13,625 nucleotides of DNA from an uncultured Anaerosacchariphilus sp. (GTDB lineage Bacteria; Bacillota; Clostridia; Lachnospirales; Lachnospiraceae). A program made the translations under genes and the position numbers. This document shows positions 1,832 through 3,096 of the stretch, in pieces. The DNA lies in NCBI GenBank assembly GCA_934373375.1, contig CAKROP010000029.1, positions 1 to 13,625 on the forward strand. Direction: 5' to 3'. Within the stretch, counting starts at the first letter, position 1. Each line of letters starts with the position of its first letter. Under the pieces are notes generated by a model. That model worked only from the letters and a program-made list of their open reading frames with translations. It was not told the origin of the DNA and did no database searches.

Positions 1832-1844
1832 GTAACAGTTCGGC

Positions 1845-1903
1845 CATGCTTCTGTGTGGCAGGATTTTATGCTTGCATAAGAATCCTGCTATACAGAAGC
1901 ATG
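1845..1903 (+). repeat. Long imperfect inverted repeat / hairpin with CTTG loop
   Basis: The arms at 1845-1872 and 1875-1903 match along about 28 pairs, with two positions that would be G-U wobbles in RNA and one single-base bulge. The tip reads ATGC-TT-GCAT, so in RNA it would close as a stable CUUG tetraloop. No T-run follows the 3' arm, so it is not a standard intrinsic terminator. It may stabilise, process or attenuate the transcript between the MBOAT and SGNH genes. Confidence 0.8.
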
Positions 1904-1933
1904 AGATGAGCGCCAGGTAATGAGCAAAAATGA

Positions 1934-1964
1934 GCTGCGAAGCAGCGGAGAGCTCCGCAGGAGC
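1934..1964 (+). repeat. Twin triloop hairpins
   Basis: Two neighbouring 5-bp hairpins are seen: GCTGC-GAA-GCAGC (1934-1946) and GCTCC-GCA-GGAGC (1952-1964), joined by GGAGA. An alternative pairing of GCGGAG (1945-1950) with CTCCGC (1953-1958) competes with both. The tight, near-symmetric design looks like a unit that recurs in clostridial intergenic regions, but that impression comes from memory and was not searched. Confidence 0.55.
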
Positions 1965-2012
1965 GGTTTTGCGAATTGGCGCGGCCGAACGTCCGTCCAT
2001 CTATCTGATCAG

Positions 2013-2034
2013 AAAGGAGGCTTCAGTTTCCGTG
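2013..2034 (+). promoter_or_regulatory. Ribosome binding site that decides a GTG start
   Basis: AAAGGAGG at 2013-2020 lies 11 bases before the in-frame GTG at 2032. The upstream in-frame ATG at 1930 has no comparable site and lies inside the structured element, so GTG 2032 is the preferred start. Confidence 0.8.
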
Positions 2035-3096
2035 AAAACAAAAAAACAAACCCTGTTCGGATGGCTTTTGATGATAGTGGCAGTTATAGCCCTGCTCTGC
2101 GGTCTCATCAGACTCTGTAATTACCTCCTGATGGACGACAGTCAAAGCTATACAAGACTAACTATGCATGAGCTTTATGAGCGCGCCGACGCAGGCGAGG
2201 AGATTGATACCCTGTTCCTGGGAAGCTCCCATTGCTACCGGGCCTACGACCCGGAACTCTACGAAGAACTGACCGGAAGGACAGCATACAATCTGGGATC
2301 TTCTTCCCAGAATTACGATACATCCTACTATCTTCTGCGGGAGGCAGCCAGACTTTACGAGCTGAAAACCGTCTATCTGGATATGCACTACAAGTTCCTG
2401 TTTATGGACAGCGAAGACCGTGACCTGGTGCAGGCCAATATCATTTCCGACTATATGCGGCCTTCTTTGAATAAGCTTTCTTTCCTGCTGACCACCACAG
2501 AGGCGAAGAATTACACGAACCGCTTCTTTCCCTTCCGGCGCAGCTGGCAGGAGCTGGGAGACTTCGCATACGTGCGGGAAAATCTGGCGAAGAAGCAGAC
2601 CGAAGGCTACCGGAATTATGAGCCGGTGACCGTGGAAAATGACCGGTACGCAGGCCGGGGCTTCGTCTGGTCTGACGCGCGATTGGACGTGGACGCCATT
2701 ACCTGGTGGGACAATTTCGGCAAAGTGGCCGATGACATGAAGCTGGATACGGCGTATCCTGTCTCTTATATAGAAAGAATCGTAAGCTTTTGCCAGAAAA
2801 ACGGAATCCGTCTGGTGTTCGTAACCGCGCCCAGTCTGGATCAGTATCTGAAGGCCATCGGCCCCTACGATCCGGCTCATGCTTACGTGCAGGAGCTGGC
2901 GGAGCGTTTCGGCGTGGAGTATCTGGATTTCAATCTGGCGAAGACGGAGTACCTGGAGCTGACAGCGGACGATTATATCGACGTGGATCATCTGAATGGA
3001 ACCGGCGCGGAGAAGCTGACCCTTTTGCTGACTGAAGCGGATGGAAAGCCGATTGACGAATATTTCAACGCGTGTTATGATGATACATGCGAGTAA
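2032..3096 (+). CDS. Membrane-anchored SGNH-like acyl-transfer partner of MBOAT (AlgJ/DltD-like)
   Basis: The product is 354 residues from the GTG start. It has a basic N-terminus, one membrane segment (about residues 9-34) and an extracytoplasmic domain. That domain opens with IDTLFLGSSHCYRAYDP (58-73): the LGSSH replaces the GDS of classical SGNH hydrolases, as in DltD and AlgJ/X-type proteins, with Ser66 the likely nucleophile. YNLGSSSQ (86-93) fits the next conserved block. YIDVDHLNGTGAEKLT (315-330) supplies the C-terminal Asp/His pair, probably Asp317 and His320. It follows the MBOAT gene, so the likely role is to receive acyl groups from the MBOAT channel and place them on a surface glycan, or to assist that step. 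The anchored topology and the GSSH motif support this over a free esterase. The target polymer is unknown. The last codons contain a promoter for the next genes. Confidence 0.82.
   Translation: MKTKKQTLFGWLLMIVAVIALLCGLIRLCNYLLMDDSQSYTRLTMHELYERADAGEEIDTLFLGSSHCYRAYDPELYEELTGRTAYNLGSSSQNYDTSYYLLREAARLYELKTVYLDMHYKFLFMDSEDRDLVQANIISDYMRPSLNKLSFLLTTTEAKNYTNRFFPFRRSWQELGDFAYVRENLAKKQTEGYRNYEPVTVENDRYAGRGFVWSDARLDVDAITWWDNFGKVADDMKLDTAYPVSYIERIVSFCQKNGIRLVFVTAPSLDQYLKAIGPYDPAHAYVQELAERFGVEYLDFNLAKTEYLELTADDYIDVDHLNGTGAEKLTLLLTEADGKPIDEYFNACYDDTCE
3053..3081 (+). promoter_or_regulatory. Predicted sigma-A promoter for the sugar-biosynthesis operon
   Basis: TTGACG (3053-3058) is separated by exactly 17 bases from TATGAT (3076-3081), and TG at 3073-3074 makes an extended -10. 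This is close to consensus in both boxes, yet it lies within the last codons of the SGNH gene. Transcription would start near 3088 and leave a leader of about 95 bases before the aminotransferase. The leader can form an 8-bp stem (3114-3121 with 3143-3150, one wobble). Confidence 0.65.

Follow-up and report, generated by a model that had tools for sequence, protein, structure and literature searches.

Elements of the IS66 family are marked by an 8-bp duplication and by ends beginning GTAA. An account of REP elements (PMC2817692) gives the proposal that they are mobilized by tyrosine transposases, encoded by genes with REPs on either side. The Clostridiales-1 motif (Rfam RF01699) is tabulated by Weinberg 2010 (PMC2864571) as probably an RNA and not cis-regulatory. 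In the 13,625-nucleotide stretch of DNA analyzed here (the window), an Rfam search with relaxed filters aligns the RF01699 model over its full length (1–166 of 166) with positions 1838–1990 at an E-value of 2.1e-6. The score of this match, 36.3 bits, lies below the curated cut-off of 48 and so falls short of membership by score, and at the gathering threshold the whole window gives no match. Four of 20 related loci match RF01699 at E ≤ 1e-3, none of them over the cut-off. The analysis below indicates that 1832–1995 is very likely an old, probably immobile copy of a non-autonomous, MITE-type element of gut Lachnospiraceae.

Results

The locus and its fold

The features of the locus are as follows.

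395–1831, + strand: MBOAT gene (PF03062, 1.9e-29), whose stop codon TAA (1829–1831) abuts the element
1832–1836, + strand: left terminal tip GTAAC, directly after the MBOAT stop codon; GTWAC is the best-scoring end offset in the family
1838–1845, + strand: P1 5′ strand, forming the inner portion of the left terminal inverted repeat (GTTCGGCC), 100% complementary to 1983–1990
1845–1903, + strand: P2, long hairpin with a GCTTGC tip (folding, complementarity and the 43-copy alignment)
1910–1915, + strand: P3 5′ strand GCGCCA, pairing with 1977–1982 (folding)
1922–1923 and 1973–1974, + strand: GA facing GA, the tandem G.A positions inside the P3-P4 helix (sequence reading)
1924–1929, + strand: P4 5′ strand GCAAAA, pairing with TTTTGC at 1967–1972 (folding)
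1934–1946, + strand: P5, triloop hairpin GCTGC-GAA-GCAGC (sequence reading)
1952–1964, + strand: P6, triloop hairpin GCTCC-GCA-GGAGC (sequence reading)
1977–1982, + strand: P3 3′ strand TGGCGC, contiguous with the P1 3′ strand
1983–1990, + strand: P1 3′ strand, forming the inner portion of the right terminal inverted repeat (GGCCGAAC)
1991–1995, + strand: GTCCG in place of the right tip, which is TGTWAC in mobile copies (sequence comparison)
2032–3096, + strand: downstream gene, the SGNH partner of an earlier note, with a GTG start chosen by us and preceded by AAAGGAGG

The earlier note had described 1838–1990 as a nested multi-stem element, and sequence reading together with folding confirms all five of its pairings where it had placed them, as sequence reading does the contiguity of the 3′ strands of the outer and second stems over 1977–1990. 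The further claim that this is more order than a random spacer should have is borne out by RNA folding, which gives −79.8 kcal/mol for 1838–1990 against a shuffled mean of −47.7 (s.d. 3.8), a z of −8.4, with 0 of 200 shuffles as good. The complementary strand also folds far better than its shuffles (z −9.3), and folding of 1833–1995 with DNA parameters, at a z of −8.1 against shuffles, draws P1 to P6. As the opposite strand and the DNA parameters are similarly exceptional, the single-sequence fold alone cannot indicate RNA. The twin hairpins P5 and P6 are absent from the single-sequence RNA minimum-energy structure and present in both the DNA-parameter fold and the alignment of 43 copies. P2 has 22-nt arms, 91% Watson-Crick paired (fully paired if G-U is allowed), and a 6-bp tip with a one-base bulge. 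At the tandem G.A positions the facing G141 of that alignment is invariant, A91 and A142 are almost so, and G90 is sometimes A; these positions would form sheared pairs. A kink-turn reading of the motif was dropped on inspection.

Dispersed copies and compensatory change

A blastn search with 1832–2000 returned eight human-gut contigs at 76–86% identity, and a pattern for the triloop domain found at least 120 stretches, many per genome. By hand count, 109 of the 120 listed stretches are titled Lachnospiraceae or a genus that we placed there; a few matches (e.g. L125 and L061) look like chance on reading. R1, a covariance model built from 43 copies, has matches in at least 65 of 200 genomes of one family (that of G001), many of them multi-copy, with at most 14 candidates scored per genome, and 23 matches in one Eisenbergiella genome. 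Copies elsewhere, which the earlier note had made a test of its proposal, are thus found dispersed in Lachnospiraceae genomes, and they are dispersed within one genome, as those of a MITE are.

Set 1 goes back to 141 pattern occurrences among the matches listed, of which 40 failed end detection (edge, no candidate ends or weak pairing) and 101 were kept; the 94 copies with distinct left flanks are counted, and because of the end-detection filter the set favors copies with recognizable ends. Set 2 was taken mostly from high-copy genomes of the R1 survey: of 66 matches, 61 were entered (five secondary ones being omitted), 2 were already in set 1 and 59 are counted, including L195, whose contig has the same length as that of L146 and which is probably a further duplicate. 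Set 3 consists of 20 loci from genomes with 1–11 listed matches. Alignment A1 (MAFFT) holds 43 of 48 selected sequences, with L048, L050, L077, L078 and L086 left out.

A plasmid search gave no match. The 16-mer of the P5 hairpin occurs in 34 stretches of viral contigs, with no element copy in the ∼100 bases around each (by eye), and the end 14-mers gave mostly apparent chance matches there and one relative with paired ends and a duplication, L293. Records labeled ‘Bacteriophage sp.’ from human faeces (L035–L042) carry elements, and these records may be bacterial chromosomal contigs. Whole or partial elements also stand in head-to-tail arrays (G021:C3:77377–78019, G186:C56:8992–9472, L050, L120 and L151). 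In Eisenbergiella copies such as L054, L062 and L076 the P5 hairpin is separated from ATGAGCA by an additional hairpin, so that the fold is a modular one.

On A1, 38 of 58 pairs are changed on both sides in some copy, 86.2% of cells are paired (72.3% shuffled, at most 40.3% in slid structures) and 406 cells are changed on both sides (166.5 shuffled, at most 151 slid), where the structure string, having been drawn from the window copy, is favored over its slid versions and related sequences may exceed shuffles without any structure. In this test for compensatory change in aligned copies, which the earlier note had called for, the excess of two-sided changes over shuffles speaks for a maintained fold. 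Over the 43 copies P1 (helix 1) is 98.8% paired with two-sided change in 4 of 6 pairs, P4 (helix 5) is 98.0% paired with such change in 3 of 8, and P6 is 95.5% paired with such change in 3 of 5; P2 has two-sided change in 26 of 28 pairs, with 76.4% of its cells paired in an alignment that was not fitted to the structure. For P3, five pairs were counted, with 87.0% of cells paired, and of 58 copies parsed by script, 45 have G-C and 13 have A-T as the outer pair. The P5 stem is invariant in A1, partly at least because the genome scan pattern required it. A fold that varies in compensatory ways is probably of some use to the element or to its host; self-templated correction of palindromes, an unselected cause, would equally mimic compensation.

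Ends and target-site duplications

The ends of the family read GTWACAGTTC...GAACTGTWAC. In set 1, exact direct repeats are present at length 8 in 13 of 94 copies and at lengths 3–7 and 9–12 in 0–2; with up to one mismatch allowed, 18 of 94 have a repeat at length 8 (5, 3, 5 and 1 at lengths 5, 6, 7 and 9), compared with 10 of 8742 pairs of flanks exchanged between copies. GTWAC scored best (18) among the 256 end offsets scanned, and its register-shifted neighbors scored 14, 14 and 9. Set 2 has exact 8-bp repeats in 5 of 59 copies and 0–3 at other lengths, and repeats with at most one mismatch in 9 of 59 against 16 of 3422 swapped pairs. Genome G014 has 7 loci whose two ends are exact, 4 of them with an exact repeat (L234, L238, L239 and L240), and 13 with one exact end, 2 of them with such a repeat (L222 and L229); by eye, 3 of the 20 loci of set 3 have one (L708–L710).

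Two tips that each differ from GTWAC by at most one base are present in 38 of 94 copies (set 1) and 28 of 59 (set 2), so the family carries the terminal inverted repeats of a MITE; the fixed-length, 8-bp target-site duplication of such elements is likewise a property of the family and not of the window copy. Copies without a recognizable duplication are older or of other origin, a repeat with at most one mismatch being kept in only 18 of 94 and 9 of 59. Among 34 copies ending GAACG there is no second kind of duplication. Matched ends, 8-bp duplications and dispersed copies together identify a non-autonomous element of MITE type.

The window copy

The window copy has neither an 8-bp duplication (5 of 8 positions are mismatched) nor a right tip, and its own insertion is accordingly deduced from the family and from empty sites. 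Three syntenic MBOAT-SGNH-DegT operons (L639, L640 and L641) share with the window an MBOAT protein of 46–70%, a next gene of 59–67% and a DegT protein of 76–91% identity, and the element is absent from the matching site in all three; model R1 finds in them one chance-level match (8.1 bits, E 1), located elsewhere. With 3 of 3 syntenic operons lacking the element, the window copy is most simply a gain in its own lineage and is not a fixed regulator of the MBOAT/SGNH pair. For this gene pair, the earlier proposal of a cis-acting RNA controlling the MBOAT:SGNH ratio is thus left unsupported, and the 19 upstream proteins scanned share no function. In a weaker form the idea may survive, since a copy landing behind a stop codon may alter the mRNA there. 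Another proposal of the earlier note, a small non-autonomous mobile element with terminal inverted repeats, stands for the family, which is dispersed with matched ends and 8-bp duplications, and fails for the window copy in its right tip and duplication; this copy is probably now immobile.

The protein encoded at 2032–3096 matches no Pfam family at 1e-5 and found no confirmed relative in a search of genome contigs; its gene is kept in synteny at the 59–67% identity given above. No confirmed relative of the window aminotransferase was found among viral contigs. Another copy lies behind an MBOAT gene at L064 (40% identity over 275 residues), where the downstream protein does not align with that of the window, so that L064 is not the same locus. 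Lying in sense between two co-directional genes, the window element would at present most likely have a passive effect, in which a stable barrier in the MBOAT-SGNH mRNA would change its processing or decay.

Other cores between the same ends

The same ends with exact 8-bp repeats enclose other cores of 192 bp in L155, 203 bp in L085 and 138 bp in L293, as well as a deletion form of 66 bp in L074; in L083 the 8-bp repeat beside a palindrome of 87 bp has one mismatch. Six elements of G034 (L728–L733, 162–174 bp) combine the same ends with a different, hairpin-rich core, and five of them have exact 8-bp repeats. In G065 the palindromes of 36–43 bp (L718–L727) are little more than two ends, and five of these ten have exact repeats, one more having a repeat with one mismatch; a 28-bp palindrome of the same genome (L734, 95–122) also has an exact 8-bp repeat. 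These palindromes would be transposable units of very small size. As unlike cores have the same ends and 8-bp repeat in common, the ends appear to be the transposition signal and the P2–P6 fold to be carried. A 13-base end pattern occurs 172 times in G034.

A DDE-type transposase supplied in trans would, on this evidence, recognize little more than the ∼11–14-bp ends and would move whatever lies between them, the elaborate fold being cargo and no part of end recognition. Among the terminal-inverted-repeat pairs listed, no autonomous element or transposase was found. Three pairs 0.8–3.3 kb apart (in G065 and G034) were considered as autonomous copies and rejected, having no duplications and, by eye, no transposase-like ORF; in G003, G014 and G057 there is no long pair among those listed. 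IS66 was also considered as the partner and set aside: PF03050 has a match in 7 of 12 genomes and none in G001, G007, G034, G057 and G186, and all five of these have element, RF01699 or end matches. Genomes without a PF03050 match may have lost IS66 in the past.

Placement behind stop codons

One alternative is a cis-acting RNA at mRNA 3′ ends, in which tip-less copies are kept in sense behind stop codons, mobile copies are their source, and the folded RNA would insulate, stabilize or process the transcript; we consider it possible, if doubtful. Part of set 1, the stop-codon class, is unlike random insertion. In 40 of 94 copies the element start lies no more than 12 nt from the end of a sense ORF of at least 60 codons; the mirrored test gives 11 of 94. 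With ORFs of at least 100 codons, copies with one or no tip (n = 56) divide into 26 sense, 2 antisense, 1 both and 27 neither, and those with both tips (n = 38) into 7 sense, 6 antisense and 25 neither. Gene ends that read similarly carry copies in different genomes (L084/L127, L088/L120 and L053/L067), L107 and L586 appear to lie behind C-termini that read alike, and G.T exceeds A.C by 88 to 46 in the long hairpin. For 75 RF01699 matches listed in the genome of Lachnospiraceae bacterium GAM79, orientation was compared between the two chromosome halves: 57 point away from base 1 and 18 the opposite way, the origin being assumed to lie at base 1.

These counts have to be weighed against set 2, where the bias did not recur (11 sense, 10 antisense, 1 both and 37 neither, n = 59), not even among copies with one or no tip (5 sense, 5 antisense and 1 both, n = 31); set 3, a small one with its 20 copies, leaned as set 1 did (6 sense, 2 antisense, 1 both and 11 neither within a 15-nt window). 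Set 1 appears to hold several copies of one ancestral insertion, and repeated counting of these together with the choice of genomes could produce part of the bias. Against a regulatory role there are also the three element-free relatives of the window operon, the lack of a common theme among the 19 upstream proteins scanned, and the absence of a G.T excess over A.C both among the variable pairs read in P3, P4 and P6 (2 to 8) and on A1 (84 to 89). Genes upstream of copies include the housekeeping genes for ArgS, RuvA, PolC and trigger factor. The sense bias behind stop codons is a lead, not a result. An integron attC site was considered because of the position at stop codons. At L703 and L704 the outer palindrome runs into the upstream flank, with the stop codon of the upstream ORF apparently inside a stem of more than 20 bp (by eye).

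RNA or single-stranded DNA

Selection on one strand as RNA should favor G.U over A.C. In the P2 arms, scored symmetrically, G.T numbers 88 and A.C 46 (85 distinct arms; ratio 1.91, bootstrap 1.29–2.91), and an earlier scoring of 80 arms gave 71 and 48; the even counts on A1 quoted above are noisy in P2. This excess in P2, which would arise with either nucleic acid, is set against a second alternative, rather unlikely in our estimate: that single-stranded DNA is the form in which the conserved fold acts, whether during replication or during transposition, and that its compensatory changes are misread as evidence of RNA. Purine-rich triloops occur in RNA too, and the 8-bp length of the duplication suggests a DDE enzyme and not a single-strand transposase; no enzyme acting on single-stranded DNA has been linked to the family. 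On the other side, DNA-parameter folding draws P1 to P6, and G.T wobbles are scarce in the P3, P4 and P6 pairs read. Of the 94 P6 hairpins that could be parsed (from 101 copies, 7 remaining unparsed), 76 have a GNA loop, 9 a GNNA loop and 9 some other loop, and P5 contains GCGAAGC; GNA/GNNA is described as the loop rule for extraordinarily stable DNA mini-hairpins such as GCGAAGC in one report on these (PMC4686876).

A broader proposal is that Clostridiales-1 and its relatives are transposable elements of one superfamily rather than a family of small-RNA genes. Their conserved, covarying fold, with its GNA mini-hairpins, would function in the form of single-stranded DNA, a single enzyme would move elements as small as 28 bp by their ends of 11–14 bp, and some copies would later have become fixed in sense after stop codons, where they serve as the 3′ ends of mRNAs. 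We regard this combination as unlikely and offer it as speculation.

Relation to RF01699

RF01699 has 78 matches in the complete genome of GAM79 (G005) and matches in 10 of 12 genomes tried, 5 of these over the cut-off, and in 0 of 14 controls. Among 40 high-scoring loci, taken from the top of the list of RF01699 matches, 6 have an exact 7-bp repeat at one common offset, the next unrelated offsets having 2. In GAM79, some RF01699-like copies among L576–L601 seem to begin at a gene stop codon, each with an outer stem of its own that still pairs (by eye).

A processed small RNA, also among the proposals of the earlier note, corresponds to the class that RF01699, the nearest family, has in Rfam. 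A trans-acting small RNA of the Clostridiales-1 family, either with a promoter of its own or released from MBOAT mRNA, would account for the full-length alignment of the model on 1838–1990 and would agree with the listing of the motif as probably an RNA and not cis-regulatory (PMC2864571). It is hard to reconcile with a score of 36.3 against the curated 48 bits and with the 1500–2500 interval, in which no σ70-like promoter was found (shuffles average 1.0), and 78 dispersed matches in one genome with 7-bp repeats fit a mobile element better than the gene of a small RNA; we judge it improbable. Chance, or ordinary intergenic hairpins with no family behind them, can be dismissed as the origin of the 1838–1990 structure on its z of −8.4, its relatives in 65 of 200 genomes and its covariation.

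Discussion

Under the MITE-type reading of 1832–1995, what was a candidate ‘sRNA of unknown function’ becomes a mobile element that can be tested, with matches in about one-third of the genomes sampled from its family (at least 65 of 200). This reading illustrates that strong covariation can accompany a transposable repeat, and, with ends so short that a 28-bp palindrome sits between exact 8-bp duplications, it makes the missing transposase a defined search target. In a literature search over titles and abstract openings we recognized no description of this repeat as mobile.

With REP elements and their RAYT enzymes the family shares its palindromic, extragenic and high-copy character and the formation of some arrays, and the 28–43-bp palindromes of G065 are REP-like; the exact 8-bp duplications differ from that system and argue against REP/RAYT identity. 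The 8-bp duplication and GTAA-type ends are shared with IS66 as that family is generally known, whereas PF03050 has no match in 5 of 12 genomes and some element ends read GTTAC.

RF01699 has in identical order the outer stem, the long hairpin with its GCTTGC tip, the ATGAG/CGAAT helix and the GGAG..CG hairpin domain, and is dispersed and multi-copy like the family of the window element. It differs in that some GAM79 copies have other ends (TGATGCC...GACATCA), with a repeat of ∼7 bp instead of 8, and the same subset carries a further right-hand hairpin outside the Rfam model. Like bacterial MITEs, the present elements are short, with no long ORF, inverted termini, a target-site duplication and many copies; unlike them, they enclose a covarying, multi-branched fold in place of a recognizable transposase-gene remnant, and several dissimilar cores occur between the same ends. 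The window element is best described as MITE-type, with a core resembling Clostridiales-1.
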